Below, piece after piece: positions 7,652 to 25,389 of a stretch of DNA of 61,175 bases. Origin of the DNA: Clostridia bacterium (GTDB taxonomy: Bacteria > Bacillota > Clostridia > Oscillospirales > CAG-272); contig JAQXHN010000025.1 of assembly GCA_029007295.1 (NCBI GenBank), positions 1-61,175 on the forward strand, in the 5' to 3' direction. Under the pieces are notes generated by a model. The model saw only the letters and a program-made list of their open reading frames with translations, did not search any database and was not told the origin of the DNA. Each line of letters starts with the position of its first letter. The stretch's first letter is position 1. The position numbers were made by a program, and so were the translations under genes.

Positions 7652-10600
7652 TTAGTCCGACACCTTTTCGATTTGAATGTTATTATAACATTCCATACCG
7701 GTTCCTGCGGGAATGAGCTTACCGATTATAACATTCTCCTTCAAGCCGAGCAGGTTATCCGTTTTACCTCTGATAGCCGCTTCGGTAAGAACCTTTGTCG
7801 TCTCCTGGAAGGACGCCGCAGAGAGGAAGGATTCTGTTTGCAACGCCGCCTTTGTGATACCTAAAAGCATAGGAGTTGCCTGTGCGAGTGAAAGCGTTCT
7901 GTCTCCATCGTCAATAAGCTTCTGAATTCGCTCATTTTCACTCTCAAACTCGGTAACATCAACGACGGTACCAACGAGAAGGTTTGTACTGCCGGAATCG
8001 TCGACCTTGCATTTACGGGTCATCTGACGGGCAATTACCTCAATATGCTTATCGTTAATATCAACGGACTGCATACGGTAAACACGCTGAACCTCACGAA
8101 TGATGTAGTCATAGACCGCATCAAGTCCGTTAATTCTCGTAATATCGGCAGGACTCATAAAGCCCTCGGTCAGTGCCTGCCCTCTTGTAACCGTGTCACC
8201 GTCTGCAACAAGCATATGAATACCGAACTGGATGAGATATGTTCTCTCCTCTCCGTCTTCACCGGTAATTGTAACATTGTGACCTCGTTTAACATCGTTA
8301 ATCTTAACTGTACCGTCGATTTCACTGACAACGGCGGTCTTTTTCGGTCTTCGAGCCTCAAAAAGCTCTTCAACTCTCGGCAAACCGTTTGTAATGTTAG
8401 AGCCTGCAACGCCGCCCGTATGGAACGTTCTCATCGTAAGCTGTGTACCCGGCTCACCGATGGACTGCGCCGCAATAATACCGACGGCTTCGCCTACCGT
8501 AATAGGCTTACCGGACGCCAAATCGGCGCCGTAGCAATGAGCGCATACCCCATGCTTTGCTTTGCAGTGAAGAATCGAACGAACACATACTCTTTCGATA
8601 CCGGCGTCAACAATAGCCTTTGACTGTGCGTCGGAAATCATTGTATTCTTTTCAACGAGAACTTCGCCTGTTTCGGGATGAACTACCGTATCTACGGAAT
8701 ATCTTCCGACAAGGCGTTCCTGCAACGGCTCAATAATATCCTTGCCTTCTGCAATGGTTGATACCCAGATACCCTTTTCGGAATGACAGTCTTCCTCGCG
8801 GATGATAACCTCCTGCGATACGTCAACCAAAAGTCTTCTTAGATATCCGGAGTCGGCTGATCTGAGCGCCGTATCTGAAAGAGCCTGACGTGCACCTCGC
8901 GCTGCCATAACATATTCAAGTATATTTAATCCTTCACGGAAGTTTGACTTAATCGGAATCTCAAGCGTTCGTCCGTTCGCCGCAAACATAAGTCCGCGCA
9001 TACCTGCAAGCTGACGAAGCTGTGTTGTGTTACCGCGGGCTCCGGAGTCAATCATCATCTTGATTGAATTGTAGCGGTCAAAGCCGTCCTGCAAGGATTT
9101 AACGACCTCCTTGGTCGTGTTATCCCAAATGTCTATTACGCTCTTATATCTTTCATTCTCGGTCAGTCTGCCGCGCAAATAATGCTGACGGACCTGCTCA
9201 ACCTTCTTTTCGGCTTCAGCTATTAATTCATACTTCGCACCGGGTACGTCAATATCCGCAACCGAAATTGAAATAGCCGCTTTCGTGGAGTACTTATAAC
9301 CCATTGACTTAATTGCGTCAATTACGGGAGCAGTGCCTGCCGCACCGTGAATTCTGATACAGCGGTCTATAATCTGACCGAGCTGTTTCTTCTTACACTC
9401 AAAGCCAATTTCAAAGTTTAGTCTTGTTTCGGGATCTGTGCGGTCTACATACCCGAGATCCTGGGGAATTGACTGGTTAAAAATCAGTCTGCCGTATGTC
9501 GTTTCAACTAGTCCGGTTACTTCCTCTCCGTCGAAATTCTTTGTTACACGGATCTTAATAGGAGCATGAAGTCCTACGTCGCCGTTTTCATAAGCCATCG
9601 TAACTTCGTCAAAGTCACGGAACACATGACCTTCGCCCTTTTCACCGGCTTTATCAATGGTAAGGTAATATGAACCGAGCACCATATCCTGTGAAGGTAC
9701 GGTCACGGCTTTACCGTCTGCAGGCTTTAAGAGGTTATTTGCAGAGAGCATTAAGAATCTCGCCTCTGCCTGAGCCTCCGCTGAAAGCGGTACGTGAACA
9801 GGCATCTGGTCGCCGTCAAAGTCGGCGTTAAATGCAGTACATACCAAGGGATGGAGCTTTATTGCTCTGCCCTCTACGAGCACGGGCTCAAACGCCTGAA
9901 TCGACAGACGGTGAAGTGTAGGCGCACGGTTAAGAAGTACAGGATGTCCTTTAATTACATTTTCAAGTGCGTCCCAAACCTCGGGGCTGATTTTGTCAAC
10001 CTTTTTCTTTGCGTCCTTTATATTGGACGCCTTTTGCGTCTCAACAAGGCGCTTCATAACGAAGGGCTTGAAAAGTTCCAGCGCCATTTCCTTAGGAAGA
10101 CCACACTGATAAATCTTAAGCTCCGGTCCGACAACGATAACGGAACGGCCCGAATAGTCAACACGTTTTCCGAGAAGATTCTGACGGAACCTACCTTGCT
10201 TACCCCTGAGCATTTCGGAAAGCGATTTCAAGGGACGATTGTTGGGTCCCGTTACCGGCTTTCCTCTTCTGCCGTTATCGATAAGTGCGTCAACAGCCTC
10301 CTGAAGCATACGCTTTTCGTTGCGGATAATGATTTCGGGAGCACGTAATTCAATGAGCTTTGCAAGACGGTTGTTACGGTTAATAACCCTTCTGTATAAG
10401 TCGTTTAGATCTGATGAAGCGAAGCGACCGCCGTCAAGCTGAACCATAGGACGGATTTCCGGAGGAATAACCGGAATAACGTCAAGAATCATCCATTCGG
10501 GACGGTTATTGGACTTACGAAACGCCTCAACAACCTCTAATCTCTTTATTATACGAAGCTTTTTCTGACCGGAGGCTGTTTCAAGCTCCGCTTTTAACTG

Positions 10601-11167
10601 CTCCGAAAGGGCTTCTATGTCAATTTCACTTAATAATTCCTTAATTGCTTCCGCACCCATTCCGACGCGGAAATCATTTTCATAACGCTCATAATTTTCA
10701 CGGTATTCCTTTTCTGTTAAGAGCTGGTACTTCATAAGGGGGGTGTCGCCCGGATCAATTACGATATATTGAGCGAAATACAGAACCTTTTCAAGAAGTC
10801 TCGGTGAAATGTCAAGCAGCAGACCCATTCTCGAAGGAATAGCACGAAAATACCAGATATGGGATACAGGAGCTGCAAGCTCGATATGACCCATTCTCTC
10901 ACGGCGCACCTTTTTGGTGGTTACTTCTACCCCGCACTTTTCACAGATTTTTCCCTTGTAGCGAACTCTCTTATATTTGCCGCAAAGGCACTCCCAGTCT
11001 TTAGTGGGACCGAAGATTTTTTCGCAGAAAAGTCCGTCACGCTCCGCCTTTAAGGTACGGTAATTAATCGTCTCCGGCTTCTTAACTTCGCCGTAAGACC
11101 AGCTTCTTATCATCTCGGGAGATGCTAAACCGATTCTTATTGAATCAAAAGTATTGTTGTTTTCCAT
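7652..11167 (-). CDS. rpoC: DNA-directed RNA polymerase subunit beta'
   Basis: The catalytic beta' subunit, about 1171 residues. It has the zinc motif [20 protein letters not shown] near the N-terminus, the absolutely conserved NADFDGDQM catalytic Mg-binding loop, and the trigger-loop/bridge-helix segment [16 protein letters not shown]. The second zinc site is [20 protein letters not shown]. I place the start at the ATG at 11167 (MENNNTFDS) because AAAGGAG lies 7 nt upstream. The ATG at 11173 is only 1 nt from that site, and a TTG at 11188 would overlap the rpoB stop. It follows rpoB after 17 nt and is co-transcribed with it. Confidence 0.98.
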
Positions 11168-11184
11168 TTGCATTCTCCTTTCAA

Positions 11185-14100
11185 TCAAATATCGTAATCG
11201 TCGTCAGCGAAATCGTCTTCGATTACATCGGATTCAAATTCGCTTTCATCAAATAATGAGTCGTCTTCATCTGCTTCTCTAATTACGCTTCCTTCACCGA
11301 TTTCGTCGGTTTCAACGGTTGCGCCCAAATCAGAAGGAGCAATATACTGTGGCTCGTCGTATTCCTCTTCACCGAGCTTGGCAAGTTCGATTTCCTCTCC
11401 GTTCTTATCAAGCACTCGAACGTCCAAACAAAGCGACTGAAGCTCCTTAACAAGCACCTTAAAGGATTCCGGAACGCCCGGAGTCGGAATATTTTGACCC
11501 TTTACGATCGCTTCGTAGGTCTTCACACGTCCTGTGACGTCGTCGGACTTAACGGTCAGGATTTCCTGAAGAGTATACGCCGCGCCGTATGCCTCAAGCG
11601 CCCATACCTCCATTTCGCCGAATCTCTGACCGCCGAACTGAGCTTTACCGCCCAGAGGCTGTTGAGTTACGAGCGAGTACGGTCCCGTTGAACGGGCATG
11701 GATCTTATCATCAACAAGATGATGAAGCTTAAGATAATACATGATGCCGACCGTTACGGGGTTATCAAACTTTTCACCGGTTCTACCGTCATACAGGACG
11801 GTCTTACCGTTCTTGTTCATACCCGCCATTTCAAGACACTTTGTGATATCCTGCTCCGTTGCACCGTCAAATACGGGTGTCATTACCTTCCATCCGAGCT
11901 TCTTTGCAGCTATACCGAGGTGTACCTCAAGCACCTGTCCGATATTCATTCGGGAGGGCACGCCCAACGGATTAAGAACGATATCCAAAGGTGTGCCGTC
12001 AGGCAAGAACGGCATATCCTCGGGCGGTAATATTCTCGAAACAACGCCCTTGTTACCGTGACGGCCTGCCATCTTGTCGCCTACCGAAATTTTTCTCTTC
12101 TGTGCCACATATACGCTGACAACCTTGTTAACGCCGGGACTCAATTCGTCGCCGTTTTCACGGGAGAATACCTTAACATCAACAACTACGCCGGATTCGC
12201 CGTGAGGCAAACGAAGCGATGTATCACGAACCTCTCTTGCCTTCTCGCCGAAAATTGCACGCAGAAGTCTTTCCTCGGCTGTAAGCTCTGTCTCGCCCTT
12301 AGGCGTAACCTTACCGACAAGGATGTCGCCCGCACGAACTTCGGTACCTTTTCTTATAATACCCTCGCTTGTCAAATCCTTCAGGGCGTCATCACCTACA
12401 TTCGGGATTTCACGGGTGATTTCCTCGGGACCGAGCTTTGTATCGCGGGCCTCGTGCGAATACTCTGCAATATGAATGGACGTATAAACATCATTGCGAA
12501 CGAGGTTTTCGTTAAGCAATACCGCATCCTCATAGTTATAGCCTTCCCACGTCATAAATCCGATAAGCGCATTCTTGCCGAGGGAAACCTCGCCGTTACA
12601 GGTTGCGGGACCGTCTGCTATTACCTGTCCCTTAATAACTCTTTCGCCCTTATCAACAATAGGACGCTGATTTATGCAGGTGCCGTGGTTTGAACGGCGG
12701 AACTTTATCAGGTGGTATGCATTCTTTTGTCCGTTGTCGTTTAATATAACGATTTCATCTGCGGAAACCTTCTCAACAATACCGGATTCCTTAGCGCAAA
12801 CAACAACGCCGGAGTCTATTGCCGCCTTATGCTCCATACCGGTACCTACTATAGGATTGTCGGTAACCATAAGCGGTACCGCCTGCTTTTGCATGTTTGA
12901 ACCCATCAAAGCACGGGAGTTATCGTCGTTTTCAAGGAAAGGAATCATAGCCGTTGCAACGGATACAACCATTTTGGGAGACACATCCATGTAGTCGGCC
13001 TTCTCGGCTTCAACCTCGATAATCTCGGAACGGTGACGCGCCGTAACCTTGGCATTAACGAAGTGCTTGTTCTCGTCGAGCGGCTCGTTTGCCTGCGCTA
13101 CGATATAATTATCTTCCATATCGGCGGTCATATAGGTTATCTCATCGGTAACCTCGCCGGTTTCCTTATTGATTTTTCTGTACGGCGCCATAATAAATCC
13201 GTACTCTGAAATCTTTGCATAAGTTGCAAGATAGGAAATAAGTCCAATGTTAGGACCTTCGGGCGTTTCGATAGGACACATTCTGCCGTAGTGCGTATAG
13301 TGAACGTCTCTTACTTCAAATGAAGCTCGGTCTCTTGACAAGCCGCCCGGACCCAGTGCGGAGAGTCTTCTCTTGTGCGTCAGCTCCGCAAGAGGATTGT
13401 GCTGGTCCATAAACTGTGAAAGAGGCGACGAACCGAAGAATTCACGAATTGAGGTTGCAATAGGTCTTATGTTAATAAGTCCTTCGGGAGTAATATTTTC
13501 GGCGTCCTGAGTCGTCATTCTTTCACGGATGATTTTTTCCATTCTGGAGAATCCGATTCTGAACTGATTCTGTAAAAGCTCGCCTACTGAACGGAGTCTT
13601 CTGTTTCCGAGGTGATCAATATCGTCGGTAAAGCCTATATCATAGTACAGACCAAGAATGTAGTTAACGCTGACAAAAATATCGTCTCGTGTAATATGCT
13701 TGGGACAAAGCTCCGCTATGTGCTCCTTTGCGGCTTTGATTACCGCTTCTCTGTCCGTACCAACTTCATCAATGATTGCCTGAAGCGCAGATGAAATAAC
13801 CTTCTCGTTAATACCGGCTTCCTTGAGATCGTAACCGAGCACTGCCTCGGGGAATACCGAACCGTTTGAAAATACACGGAATTCCTCGGTATCGTCTTCA
13901 ACCCTGACCCATACCTCGTTAACTCCGGCGTCCTCAATAGCTTTTGCCGTATCAGCCGTAATTGTCTCGTCGGGTAACACGAGAATTTCGCCGGTAAAAG
14001 GATTTGCAACCGGTCTTGTTGCTACCCTATCGGTAATTCTTGCGGCGATACCGGTCTTTTTGTTAAACTTATACCGTCCCACGGGAGCGAGATCATATCT

Positions 14101-14913
14101 CTTTGGGTCAAAGAACATATTGCTGATTAATGTCTGTGCGCTCTCGACAAGCGGCGGCTCGCCCGGACGAAGCTTCTTATAAATTTCCTTAAGCGCTTCT
14201 TCCTCTGCGGTTGTACCGTTCTTTTCCGCCTCCTGAGGCATAGTATCCTTCTCGATAGTTGCTCTCATCATCGGGCTGTCGCCGAACACCTGACGCAGCT
14301 CTGCGTCGGTGCCTATACCCAACGCCCTGAGAAGAATCGTAACAGGCATCTTTCTGTTCTTATCTATACGAACGCTGAGAACATCATTGATGTCGGTTTC
14401 GTATTCGAGCCAAGCTCCTCTATACGGAATAATCTGAGCCGTAAAAAGCTTTTTACCGATTTTATCGATAACGGAATCGTAATACATTCCGGGTGAACGA
14501 ACAATCTGTGAAACAACAACACGCTCTGCACCGTTGATAACGAACGTACCGTTTTCGGTCATAAGCGGGAAGTTGCCCATAAAAATTTCTTTCTCCATAA
14601 CTTCGCCTGTCGCCTTATTGAAAAGGCGAACCGTAACACGAAGAGGAGCCTCATAGTTCACATCTCTGTCCTTACATTCTTCGACAGGATACTTAGGTGT
14701 AGGATCTACAGTGAAATCAAGGAATTCAATGTAAAGATTGCCGGAATAATCCACAATAGGAGAAACATCCTTCAATACTTCGCGAAGTCCTTCATCCAAA
14801 AACCACTGATAGGATTTGGTCTGCACCTCGATTAAGTTAGGCATCTCAAGAACTTCATCTATTTTGGCGAAGCTCATTCTGGTTACTTTACCGAGTTTCT
14901 GTTCTTTTACCAC
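11185..14913 (-). CDS. rpoB: DNA-directed RNA polymerase subunit beta
   Basis: The beta subunit, about 1242 residues. The rifampicin pocket reads [13 protein letters not shown] then [13 protein letters not shown], identical to sensitive enzymes at the classic resistance positions (Asp, His, Ser), so rifampicin sensitivity is expected. An acidic C-terminal tail follows the catalytic core. Two starts are possible: ATG at 14928 or GTG at 14913. I prefer the GTG because the GGAGG inside the upstream ATG codons lies 8 nt before it, whereas nothing resembling a ribosome binding site precedes the ATG. The gene is not preceded by rplJ-rplL as in many Firmicutes; a structured leader and its own promoter lie upstream. 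Confidence 0.97.
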
Positions 14914-14980
14914 TAAACCGTCCTCCATGTTAATAATAACTGAATAAGAAATTTACACACAATATACAGTCCGCTAAGGC

Positions 14981-15130
14981 AAAAAAATCATACCGGAATT
15001 TCTCGATGTCCGCAGTGACACCCGATGAAATTTTGCTCCATCCGTATGACATGCTGGTTACAGTCAAATTATAAACAGAGCAAAATTCGACGAGAATCAA
15101 CCCCGGAAATGTTTAAAAAACAGGTATGAC
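14981..15130 (-). promoter_or_regulatory. Structured rpoB leader, candidate attenuator
   Basis: Within the 415-bp gap between rpoB and rpsT, the minus-strand transcript can fold into one long arm. Three nested pairings are visible: TCATACC (15123-15129 complement) with GGTATGA (14988-14994), a CCGG...TTCTCG block with CGAGAA...CCGG, and GAGCAAAATT with its perfect complement at 15029-15038 and 15078-15087. The outer pair is followed by seven U (14981-14987). The shape is that of an intrinsic terminator between promoter and gene, suggesting attenuation. No known riboswitch class is recognised. Confidence 0.5.
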
Positions 15131-15167
15131 CTCATATATATTATGTTTTTGCGTAAATTCGAACAAA

Positions 15168-15197
15168 ATTATATCATATATATAATCGAATTGTCAA
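15168..15197 (-). promoter_or_regulatory. rpoBC promoter
   Basis: On the minus strand TTGACA (15197-15192) and TATAAT (15173-15168) are both perfect consensus hexamers, 18 nt apart. Transcription would start near 15161 and produce a leader of about 250 nt before rpoB. Confidence 0.8.
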
Positions 15198-15260
15198 GTA
15201 AAATAAAAAAATATTAAATTTATTTACAAAAAATTAATTTATTAAATATTTGTAAAACAC

Positions 15261-15289
15261 TTGCATTATTTGCTGATTTGTGGTATTAT
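15261..15289 (+). promoter_or_regulatory. rpsT promoter
   Basis: TTGCAT at 15261-15266 and TATTAT at 15284-15289 have 17-nt spacing, about 60 nt before the rpsT start. Confidence 0.65.
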
Positions 15290-15352
15290 CTTATGGTAAT
15301 ATGCGTTCTTGCATAAAATGTCTACGGACAACTTTTACAGGAGGTGAAAATC

Positions 15353-15619
15353 ATGCCGAATATTAAATCCGCAAAAAAGCGCGTGCTGGTAACTGAAAGC
15401 AAGACTCTTCAGAACAAAATGTTCAAGTCATCCTACAGAACAGCAATGAAAAAGTACGAGGCCGCCGTTGCTTCCGGTAACAAGTCGGATGCCGAGACTG
15501 CCTATGCTGATGCCGTTAAGAAAATCGATGTTGCAGTAGCTAAGAACATCATTCACAAGAATACGGCTGCGAGAAAGAAATCTCGTTACACAAAGATGCT
15601 CACGGCTATGCAGGCATAA
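15353..15619 (+). CDS. rpsT: 30S ribosomal protein S20
   Basis: Small basic protein of 88 residues starting MPNIKSAKKRV, with the family's helical Lys/Arg/Ala-rich body and the KNIIHKNTAARKKSR segment that binds 16S rRNA. The start is the ATG at 15353, preceded by a full-consensus AGGAGGTGA ribosome binding site. An upstream in-frame GTG lies inside that site and is rejected. The gene is monocistronic, with its own promoter and two tandem terminators downstream. Confidence 0.97.
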   Translation: MPNIKSAKKRVLVTESKTLQNKMFKSSYRTAMKKYEAAVASGNKSDAETAYADAVKKIDVAVAKNIIHKNTAARKKSRYTKMLTAMQA

Positions 15620-15639
15620 TCTGCCATCGTAAGTTTTCG

Positions 15640-15674
15640 CCGATTTGGAATTATTAATTTCAAATCGGTTTTTT
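15640..15674 (+). terminator. rpsT terminator 1
   Basis: Stem CCGATTTG/CAAATCGG followed by six T. Confidence 0.85.
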
Positions 15675-15695
15675 GTTTTCATATTAATAAATAAT

Positions 15696-15736
15696 ACCGT
15701 ATTTTGCTTTAACTGCTTAAAATACGGTGTTTTTTT
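15696..15736 (+). terminator. rpsT terminator 2 (tandem)
   Basis: A 10-bp perfect stem ACCGTATTTT/AAAATACGGT followed by a run of seven T. Confidence 0.8.
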
Positions 15737-15926
15737 ATCCCTCCTTATATTTTTTATATCAGGAAATAATATGTATATCCGATAATGTAAAATCAAAAGC
15801 ACTTTTTACGGCCGAGAAGGATATAATATATTGAAAAGGAATATATTGTCGGATTATTCTTTTTTATACTGTGACTAAAATTATCCGAATGTAGCGATAA
15901 TAAATGCATAAGGAGATGTAATTCAT

Positions 15927-16349
15927 ATGAACACAAAGGAAAAAGAAAATTTTTACACAAATACACAGCACAATAAGGTTGCGGTTCGCAGAGGCGACAT
16001 ATTTTACGCAGATTTAAGTCCGGTTATTGGCTCCGAACAAGGGGGCTTGCGTCCGGTACTGATAATACAGAACGATATTGGAAACAGATATTCTCCGACG
16101 GTCATTGCCGCCGCAATTACAAGCAAGCTTGACAAGACTCGCTTACCCACTCATATTGATGTTTCGAAATCGCTGGACGTTAACAAATGCTGCGGTCTTG
16201 CATGTGATTCCGTTATTCTTCTCGAACAGATACGGACGATAGATAAACGACGTTTGAGAGAAAAAACGGGACATTTGGACGATTCGCTGATGGAAAGGGT
16301 AAATATTGCAATAAACATCAGCTTCGGGCTTTGCCTGGCAAATGAATAA
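15927..16349 (+). CDS. MazF/PemK-family endoribonuclease toxin, without a visible antitoxin
   Basis: A 140-residue PemK/MazF-fold protein. The [20 protein letters not shown] start of the fold lies at about residues 21-40, followed by [16 protein letters not shown] and the conserved [13 protein letters not shown] segment. These resemble the NdoA/MazF group that cleaves mRNA at short sequence motifs. There is an N-terminal extension of about 18 polar residues. A GGAG lies 11 nt before the ATG. The usual antitoxin (MazE/NdoAI) is not encoded directly upstream: the 190-bp gap after the rpsT terminators has no suitable reading frame. It may be paired with a distant antitoxin. A strong terminator follows. 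Confidence 0.88.
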
Positions 16350-23025: not shown

Positions 23026-25389
23026 GTGTATCAGGTAATTAAAAGAGACGGCAAAATTGCCGAATTTGACATTACTAAGATTAACGAAGCCATCACCAAG
23101 GCCTTCGTTGCTCAAAACAAACAGTATCATCCGGGTGTAATTGACTTCCTCGCATTAAAAGTTACGGCTGATTTTGAGCCGAAAATAAAGGACGGCAAGA
23201 TTGCCGTTGAGGACATCCAGGACAGCGTTGAATCCGTGCTTGTTCAGGCGGGATATGCCGATGTTGCAAAAGCGTATATTCTCTACCGACGCCAGAGAGA
23301 AAAAATACGCAATATGAAGTCAACGATACTCGACTATAAGGAAATCGTCGACAGCTATGTAAAGAGCATTGACTGGAGAGTTAAGGAAAACTCTACGGTT
23401 ACATATTCGGTAGGCGGTCTTATTCTTTCAAACTCCGGTGCTATAACGGCGAATTATTGGCTTTCCGAAATTTATGACGACGAAATTTCCAACGCTCACA
23501 GAAACGCCGATATTCATTTGCATGACCTTTCTATGCTCACAGGATACTGCGCAGGCTGGTCTCTGAAGCAGCTCATTCAGGAGGGCTTGGGAGGTGTTTC
23601 CGGCAAGATTACCTCCTCTCCCGCAAGCCACCTTGCGACGCTGTGTAACCAGATGGTAAACTTCCTTGGCATTATGCAAAACGAGTGGGCGGGTGCTCAG
23701 GCCTTCTCTTCCTTTGACACATACCTTGCGCCCTTTGTAAAGATTGACAATCTTTCATACAGAGAAGTTAAAAAATGCATTGAAAGCTTTATTTTCGGTG
23801 TTAACACTCCCTCCCGCTGGGGCACTCAGGCTCCGTTCTCGAATATTACTCTTGACTGGACCGTGCCAAACGATCTGGCAGAGCTTAACTGTATCGTAGG
23901 CGGCAAAGAGGTCGACTTCAAATATAAAGACTGTAAAAAGGAAATGGATATGGTAAACAAGGCGTTTATCGAAACCATGATTGAAGGCGACGCAAACGGC
24001 AGAGGCTTCCAGTATCCTATTCCCACATACTCTATTACAAGGGATTTCGACTGGTCGGATACCGAAAATAACAGGCTGCTGTTCGAAATGACGGCAAAAT
24101 ACGGCACGCCCTATTTCTCGAATTACATTAACAGCGACATGGAGCCCAGCGATGTTCGTTCGATGTGCTGCCGTCTGCGCCTTGATTTGAGAGAGCTTCG
24201 CAAGAAATCCGGAGGCTTTTTCGGCTCGGGCGAATCGACAGGCTCCGTAGGCGTTGTTACAATCAATATGCCGCGCCTTGCATATCTTTCAAAGACTCCC
24301 GAAGAATTCTACGAGCGTCTTGATAAATTAATGGACATATCGGCACGTTCCCTCAAGATAAAGAGAACTATTATTTCTAAGCTCCTTGACGAAGGTCTTT
24401 ACCCCTATACAAAGAGATATCTCGGCTCATTTGACAATCACTTCTCGACTATCGGCCTTATCGGTATGAACGAGGTAGGCTTAAATGCCGCATGGCTCGG
24501 CAAGGACATGACGGACAAAGCAACCCAGCAGTTCACAAAGGACGTCCTCAATCACATGCGAGACAGACTTTCCGATTATCAGGAAAAATACGGCGATCTT
24601 TACAATCTCGAGGCTACTCCCGCAGAGTCTACCACCTACCGTCTCGCAAAGAAGGATGTTGAGCGTTATCCCGATATAAAGACCGCAAATCAGAACGGTA
24701 CTCCCTACTATACAAACTCATCTCATTTACCCGTCGGATTTACCTCGGATATATTTGACGCACTTGACATTCAAGACGATTTGCAGACGCTTTATACCTC
24801 CGGTACGGTATTCCATGCATTCCTCGGAGAAAAGCTGCCCGACTGGAAGGCGGCGGCTTCTCTTGTTCGCAAGATTGCGGAAAACTACAAGCTCCCTTAC
24901 TACACGATGTCTCCGACATACTCGGTATGTCCCGACCACGGATATATCGTCGGTGAAATTTACGAGTGTCCCGAATGCGGAAGAGCAACCGAGGTTTACA
25001 GCCGTATTACAGGCTACTACCGTCCCGTACAGAATTTCAACGACGGTAAGGCTCAAGAATTCAAAGACCGCAAGGTATATGACATATCCAACTCCGTCTT
25101 AAAGCATAAAAACATAACGGAAGAGGTTTTAACGGCAGAAAAGAAAGCCCTTGAAAACGGAGAGCTTCTGCTGTTTGCCACAAAAACCTGTCCCAATTGC
25201 AAAATAGCCGCAGCCTTGCTTGATAAGGCGGGAATTTCTTATACTAAGATTGACGCAGAGCTCGACGTGGATATGACAAATGAATACGGAATCCGTCAGG
25301 CACCGACCTTAGTTATCACAAACGGTAACGAAGCTGTTAAGGTAACGAATGTTTCTAACATCAAGAAATATATCGAGGAACACAGATAA
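23026..25389 (+). CDS. nrdD: Anaerobic (class III) ribonucleotide reductase fused to a glutaredoxin-like domain
   Basis: A 787-residue class III reductase, making dNTPs under anaerobiosis. An ATP-cone regulatory domain (residues 1-95) is followed by the ten-stranded barrel, with the MCCRLRLD cysteines near 380. The zinc site is made of CPDHG near 635 and CPECG near 647. The glycyl radical site is in RITGYYRP, near 662. Residues about 710-787 form an extra thioredoxin/glutaredoxin-like domain with CPNC near 721 and the cis-Pro in QAPTL. Start is GTG at 23026 behind GAAAGGAAAG. The stop overlaps the trxB start (TAATG). The fusion and the adjoining trxB suggest protein-thiol, not formate, as reductant. 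Confidence 0.95.
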   Translation: MYQVIKRDGKIAEFDITKINEAITKAFVAQNKQYHPGVIDFLALKVTADFEPKIKDGKIAVEDIQDSVESVLVQAGYADVAKAYILYRRQREKIRNMKSTILDYKEIVDSYVKSIDWRVKENSTVTYSVGGLILSNSGAITANYWLSEIYDDEISNAHRNADIHLHDLSMLTGYCAGWSLKQLIQEGLGGVSGKITSSPASHLATLCNQMVNFLGIMQNEWAGAQAFSSFDTYLAPFVKIDNLSYREVKKCIESFIFGVNTPSRWGTQAPFSNITLDWTVPNDLAELNCIVGGKEVDFKYKDCKKEMDMVNKAFIETMIEGDANGRGFQYPIPTYSITRDFDWSDTENNRLLFEMTAKYGTPYFSNYINSDMEPSDVRSMCCRLRLDLRELRKKSGGFFGSGESTGSVGVVTINMPRLAYLSKTPEEFYERLDKLMDISARSLKIKRTIISKLLDEGLYPYTKRYLGSFDNHFSTIGLIGMNEVGLNAAWLGKDMTDKATQQFTKDVLNHMRDRLSDYQEKYGDLYNLEATPAESTTYRLAKKDVERYPDIKTANQNGTPYYTNSSHLPVGFTSDIFDALDIQDDLQTLYTSGTVFHAFLGEKLPDWKAAASLVRKIAENYKLPYYTMSPTYSVCPDHGYIVGEIYECPECGRATEVYSRITGYYRPVQNFNDGKAQEFKDRKVYDISNSVLKHKNITEEVLTAEKKALENGELLLFATKTCPNCKIAAALLDKAGISYTKIDAELDVDMTNEYGIRQAPTLVITNGNEAVKVTNVSNIKKYIEEHR

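Follow-up and report, generated by a model that had tools for sequence, protein, structure and literature searches.

A conserved structured leader RNA upstream of rpoB in a family of Clostridia, with a candidate site for transcriptional pausing or attenuation

The control of core RNA polymerase amount is, to our knowledge, poorly understood outside E. coli, in which rpoBC belongs to the rplJL operon and the attenuator sits between rplL and rpoB. The window analysed here, a 61,175-nt stretch of DNA from a Clostridia bacterium (GCA_029007295.1), raises the question of whether rpoBC can instead be controlled by a structured RNA in a leader of its own. In this locus, rpoB (11185-14913, minus strand; assigned from the list of open reading frames and by N-terminal comparison with relatives) and rpoC (7652-11188, minus strand; an open reading frame whose identity was recognised from its sequence) are divergent from rpsT on the plus strand, and the leader lies between them on the minus strand. 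A previous sequence-only reading had pointed out that the usual rplJ-rplL context is absent. This observation holds, because rpsT adjoins rpoB and rplJ-rplL are located on another contig with an L10 leader of their own. The source genome contains a single L10 match, on contig C1, where an rplL-like open reading frame comes after the L10 gene and the Rfam L10_leader precedes rplJ (46.8 bits, cut-off 44); rpoBC is found on contig C25, and no rpoB was detected in the 3.3 kb of contig C1 examined at the L10 gene.

The consensus promoter that had been proposed ahead of the leader was recovered on the minus strand (15168-15197). It is a sigma-70-type promoter with a 12/12 match (TTGACA-18-TATAAT), in which the -35 box spans 15197-15192, the -10 box spans 15173-15168 and a TG precedes the latter. 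A consensus scan of positions 13500-16200 returned 13 promoter-like sites with at least 9/12 matches, compared with 6.8 expected, and this site was the sole one to reach 12/12. A second promoter downstream of the U tract, which could have given rise to most of the rpoB mRNA, is not apparent, since the same scan gave no promoter-like site on the minus strand from the U7 run to rpoB in the window. The longest rpoB open reading frame begins at ATG 14928, which overlaps the position of the Shine-Dalgarno sequence of relatives in a by-eye comparison. Translation probably starts instead at GTG 14913, which we prefer because relatives begin at the matching codon, and AUGGAGGA is therefore taken to represent the Shine-Dalgarno region, with the probable Shine-Dalgarno sequence GGAGGA (14921-14926, minus strand) corresponding by eye to GGAGGA in relatives. 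With its ends placed about 7 nt after the -10 box and at the probable GTG, the leader RNA would extend over 14914-15161 on the minus strand and thus measure about 250 nt.

This leader is predicted to be highly structured. The minus strand from 15164 to 14926 folds with -69.1 kcal/mol, compared with -47.8 kcal/mol in shuffled sequences (z -5.14; 0 of 200 shuffles as stable), and the plus strand of the interval 14929-15197 is unremarkable (z -1.45). Three parts recur in homologous leaders: the outer helix, termed P1 (AGGUCAUACC/GGUAUGGUCU), a rod that varies, and a core in which an asymmetric internal loop is combined with a hairpin whose loop reads UAACCAG. In the window, where all parts lie on the minus strand, P1 is formed by the 5' arm AGGUCAUACC (15123-15132) and the 3' arm GGUAUGAUUU (14985-14994), corresponding to helix 1 of alignment A2. 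The lower helix of the core comprises GCUCUGUUU (15073-15081; columns 12-20 of alignment A1) on its 5' side and GGAUGGAGC (15035-15043) on its 3' side, both assigned from covariation in A1. Between them lie the conserved internal-loop strand AUAAUU (15067-15072; alignment A1) and the apical hairpin UGACUG-UAACCAG-CA(U)GUCA (15047-15066), with its UAACCAG loop at 15060-15054 and a bulged U at 15051. The U7 run (14981-14987) overlaps the 3' arm at the base of P1 and then runs past this helix. Thus, the structured leader ending in seven U that the sequence-only reading had described is borne out for the window, both in its fold and in its U7 run, whereas the run itself is not a feature of the relatives. 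The sequence GUCAUAC is duplicated in the window's core; the duplication is confined to near relatives, and we did not interpret it as an alternative arm.

To place the element in a comparative framework, we kept the best 80 of 374 rpoB-like stretches from a scan of titled genome records, 30 of which carry GTAACCAGC within 450 nt before rpoB. A larger collection of 147 leaders was reduced to 111 by removal of 36 duplicates, with 59 of them containing GTAACCAGC and three containing UUAACCAGA. Alignment A1 contains 30 core rows, including that of the window (L007, L008, L051 and one core of L064 are omitted). In these rows, 81.1% of the core cells are paired, compared with 63.9% after shuffling, and the covariation score reaches 0.508, compared with 0.215 for shuffled alignments and 0.204 for the best slid control; as the structure was read from the same sequences, this comparison favours it over slid versions, and the shuffles ignore relatedness. 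Pairing is strongest in the apical hairpin (98.9% of cells in A1 and 100% in A2), in which four of the six pairs have changed on both sides, and the loop-closing G-C is replaced by U-A in three leaders (L091, L117 and L136). By an automatic rule, the loop-closing pair is present in the minimum-energy fold of 50 of the 59 leaders. The lower helix of the core reaches 72.2% paired cells, and its columns 16 and 54 are unpaired in 19 of the 30 rows. In six leaders (L029, L061, L064, L084, L089 and L125), rpoB is preceded by two cores in tandem, spaced by about 49-50 nt, and the outer helix has diverged.

The outer helix was evaluated in alignment A2, whose 28 full-length rows, drawn from the 30 first listed, were selected for recognisable P1 arms and are in part shared with A1. 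P1 is paired in 95.7% of the cells of these rows and shows two-sided changes in five of its ten pairs, with an invariant CAU/AUG middle and covarying flanks. For P1 and core together, 91.1% of the cells are paired (82.1% after shuffling), and the score amounts to 0.369, compared with 0.206 for shuffled alignments and 0.157 for the best slide. Compensatory changes in homologous leaders, whose absence had been named in advance as evidence against a functional structure, are thus found in both P1 and the core at levels above the controls. When applied to A2 unprompted, RNAalifold returned P1, extended to 13 pairs, together with the apical hairpin and a two-pair helix, but neither the core lower helix nor the middle of the rod, which are supported by A1 and single-sequence folds. 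Single-sequence folds show the rod that connects P1 with the core, and the covariation covers P1 and core. A first test of P1, in which arms were located by consensus alone and several of them were misregistered, gave no clear signal (270 of 360 cells paired; shuffled mean 260.7, maximum 275). In the minimum-energy folds, an automatic rule detected P1 pairing in 37 of the 59 leaders, with at least two (L019 and L092) assigned on the wrong segment. By eye, a stretch near TTGTAAATTATTTGTGAA appears conserved in the 3' half of the rod in L037, L046, L066, L092, L140 and others, and it resembles sequences upstream of promoters in related loci.

The stability of the fold extends to the motif-bearing leaders as a group, whose 180 nt before the open reading frame have a mean z of -2.70 (n=62), compared with -0.27 for rpoB coding controls (n=109). 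Leaders of the sister clade, which lack the motif, reach a mean z of -1.59 (n=48 of 49) and thus also fold better than chance, so that this clade may have another structured rpoB leader. When compared by eye, sister-clade leaders without the motif (L016, L021, L022, L024-L026, L028, L032 and others) often have in common a sequence directly following the -10 box (near ACTGCATTATAATTGC), which might be a different rpoB leader element or a pause close to the promoter.

The element is closely tied to a single gene and a single family. A search of the order with the core model R1 yielded matches in 11 of 394 genomes, the source genome included, and all 11 belong to the window's family, which is composed mostly of gut-derived bacteria. 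Within this family, 63 of 295 genomes contain matches at 65 places, and rpoB lies downstream at 62 of them; of the other three, two lie at contig ends and the third is a weak match elsewhere, to the hairpin only. A tblastn search with the N-terminus of RpoB placed rpoB downstream at 67 of the 70 loci examined, some of which repeat a place. At the phylum level, only the window and L185 gave matches (2 of 299 genomes). L185, which stems from outside the family, is a false positive located inside an open reading frame with no rpoB nearby, and a weak second match in genome G548 (L149) does not precede rpoB; a score near 28 bits that stems from the hairpin alone is of little value unless the position supports it. 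These large searches of order, family and phylum were run with stricter filters, which can lose weak matches. One pattern searched in viral contigs had no exact matches. On a tree of 110 RpoB N-termini, representing 110 of the 111 leaders, the distribution of the motif (61 rows with it, 49 without it on one side of the branch) requires one change, on a branch with a support of 98/91; the choice of root decides whether this change was a gain or a loss. Moreover, a promoter with at least 10/12 matches lies upstream in 59 of the 62 distinct motif-bearing leaders, compared with 7.2 expected from mononucleotide shuffles. The covariation, the position before rpoB at 62 of 65 places and the promoters upstream in relatives together give good support to a conserved, cis-acting RNA that is linked to rpoB.

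The U7 run of the window is not conserved, and relatives typically carry UAUUU(A/U)UUU after P1, the commonest letters being GUCUAUUU(U/A)UUU after GGUAUG. A recognisable arm, chosen blind to the tail, was present in 54 of the 62 leaders, and these yielded 43 distinct tails for analysis. Their T fraction is 0.589, compared with 0.308 in the leaders, and TTNTTT occurs in 27 of them, compared with 3.6 (maximum 9) in random windows and 10.4 (maximum 19) in shuffled tails; it is absent from the other 16. The tail of the window carries TTTTTT, which matches TTNTTT. Where the arms are clear, the tail keeps its place beside P1 but lies at varying distances from the open reading frame, from 12-13 nt (L003 and L005) through 58 nt in the window and 86 nt (L098) to 140 nt (L117) and 214 nt (L111), and we therefore consider it part of the RNA element rather than of the ribosome-binding site. 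With TTNTTT taken as positions -11 to -6 and P1 as ten pairs, the predicted end of a NusG-dependent pause falls 12-13 nt past the base of P1 in 28 of the 34 TTNTTT-bearing leaders and 8 nt past it in the window. Hairpin pauses have a published spacing of 11-12 nt (PMC12288461), and for termination the published value is 7-9 nt (PMC8060035). By these values, the spacing in most TTNTTT-bearing relatives better fits a hairpin-stabilised, NusG-type pause, whereas the U7 run of the window is spaced like a terminator.

NusG-dependent terminators have A-U and G-U pairs at the base of the hairpin and interrupted U tracts (PMC8060035). The rpoB leaders resemble the NusG-dependent pauses and terminators of B. 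subtilis (trp, ribD and vmlR leaders) in these two features as well as in the order of a hairpin followed by TTNTTT within a 5' leader. They differ in that the hairpin takes the form of a long closed rod bearing a sensor-like core, that pausing is here predicted from sequence, and that the contact residues of NusG are only partly kept. Mapped by the motif W-[HY]-x-x-x-N, the residues corresponding to Y77/N81/T82 of B. subtilis are H/N/I in all seven motif-bearing genomes read, so that only N81 is retained, and several genomes without the motif share the same letters, which hence do not track it. Recognition of the tail by NusG is therefore uncertain, and we put forward its participation as a hypothesis.

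Taken as a whole, these features are best explained by a cis-acting structured leader that tunes transcription into rpoBC by pausing or attenuation in the window's family, a proposal to which we would give an even chance. The rod would form as RNA polymerase leaves the promoter. With the U-rich tail still in the hybrid or bubble, P1 would close at the exit channel and cause the enzyme to pause in most relatives or, at the U7 run of the window, to terminate in part. A factor bound to the core, most plausibly one that signals how much RNA polymerase or transcription machinery is available, could then stabilise or destabilise the rod and in this way set the read-through of polymerase into its own genes. 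It is tempting to speculate, although we think it rather unlikely, that the UAACCAG core is a binding site for RNA polymerase or for a free subassembly of beta and beta', such that the nascent leader would act as a sensor of the enzyme's own amount and trigger pausing or termination before rpoBC. If true, binding of the core by polymerase would constitute an RNA-only autoregulatory loop for RNA polymerase. The sequence-only reading had envisaged an RNA switch or attenuator regulating the amount of RNA polymerase. This interpretation is partly supported: a conserved cis-acting RNA does lie at rpoB, and attenuation is plausible for the window, in which U7 follows P1 at terminator spacing. No conserved antiterminator fold was found, and a switch responding to a specific ligand would be conjectural.

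Instead of affecting transcription, the leader may also be bound by a ribosomal protein or a polymerase subunit that keeps ribosomes away from rpoB, a mechanism known from ribosomal protein leaders. The element ends 12-30 nt before the open reading frame in many leaders, and the invariant loop and conserved asymmetric internal loop may resemble a protein site. However, the tail is up to 140-214 nt away from the open reading frame in leaders with clear arms, and pairing of the Shine-Dalgarno sequence is inconsistent, with a median unpaired probability of 0.44 and values of at least 0.5 in 22 of 59 leaders. In addition, UAACCAG is absent from E. coli 16S and 23S rRNA, so that rRNA mimicry is not obvious, although many ribosomal protein leaders do not mimic rRNA; a search for 23S rRNA in six genomes, the source genome included, found none. 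We regard translational control as a fairly unlikely alternative. Complementarity of UAACCAG to the tRNA D-loop was also considered and dropped, since an invariant loop gives no covariation test.

It is improbable that the core represents a new class of metabolite riboswitch, binding a small-molecule signal of growth state, for example a nucleotide. Its single compact core with an invariant loop would suit such a function, as would the tandem cores of L029, L061 and L064, given that some riboswitches occur in tandem. However, metabolite riboswitches usually precede several genes of a pathway, whereas this RNA is associated with only one gene, and Rfam offers no riboswitch match in the window or in 20 loci. 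No Rfam family of any kind matched the window or these loci at the gathering score, and a search of positions 14700-15700 with E values up to 5 gave nothing beyond a group II intron match below threshold (15.8 bits vs 32). The conserved rpoB leader RNA is thus absent from Rfam 15. Just as doubtful, or marginally more so, is the notion that the RNA merely stabilises the 5' end of the rpoBC mRNA or sets a processing site, with no regulation involved: a long 5' rod, together with a tail rich in U and A, could favour or hinder the action of RNases, but the invariant loop, the conserved internal loop and the conserved P1 would exceed the needs of such a role. An ordinary chance fold or DNA-level palindrome, as might arise in an intergenic region that is rich in A+T and contains numerous weak promoter-like sites, is scarcely credible in view of the z of -5.1, the covariation in both A1 and A2 and the model matches before rpoB at 62 of 65 places.

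The nearest known kind of RNA, and the only catalogued rpoB leader RNA that we encountered, is the Lacto-rpoB motif (RF01709), which is listed in PMC2864571 and named in PMC6064168 and PMC7724050. It is likewise a conserved structured RNA upstream of rpoB, in another Firmicutes lineage, but its 58-position model has a different hairpin, loop and sequence. This model (40-bit cut-off) did not match the window or the source genome, nor did it match positions 14700-15700 with E values up to 5, and it exceeded its cut-off in one of 299 genomes of the phylum. Locus L155, which scores above this cut-off, contains by eye a terminator-like hairpin and a run of T between the Lacto-rpoB motif and rpoB. 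This is a further point of resemblance and suggests that Lacto-rpoB may also act by attenuation at L155. Our literature search retrieved no description of a Clostridia rpoB leader RNA, although an unnamed entry in supplementary lists is possible; a word search found no rpoB in the main texts of PMC8040213, PMC7247131 and PMC6429828. The existence of a second rpoB leader RNA that is structurally unlike Lacto-rpoB suggests that such leaders arose more than once.

Two further systems invite comparison. The L10_leader (RF00557) also precedes an operon for gene-expression machinery, but its covariance model has no match at rpoB, and the L10_leader of this genome lies before rplJ on contig C1. In E. 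coli, attenuation and autogenous control limit rpoBC expression, and the leader described here is proposed to impose a similar limit; unlike the E. coli genes, however, rpoB is here not downstream of rplL and has its own promoter together with a lineage-specific RNA. Found almost only before rpoB, and combining a sensor-like hairpin with a candidate pause or terminator site, this RNA provides a testable handle on polymerase amount.

Two other loci in the window deserve mention, both identified by eye from the open reading frames. Beside rpsT, positions 15927-16349 encode a MazF/PemK-like protein of 140 aa with no obvious adjacent antitoxin gene. Positions 23026-25389 encode an anaerobic ribonucleotide reductase-like protein with an apparent C-terminal thioredoxin/glutaredoxin-like domain, and a thioredoxin-reductase-like gene comes after it.
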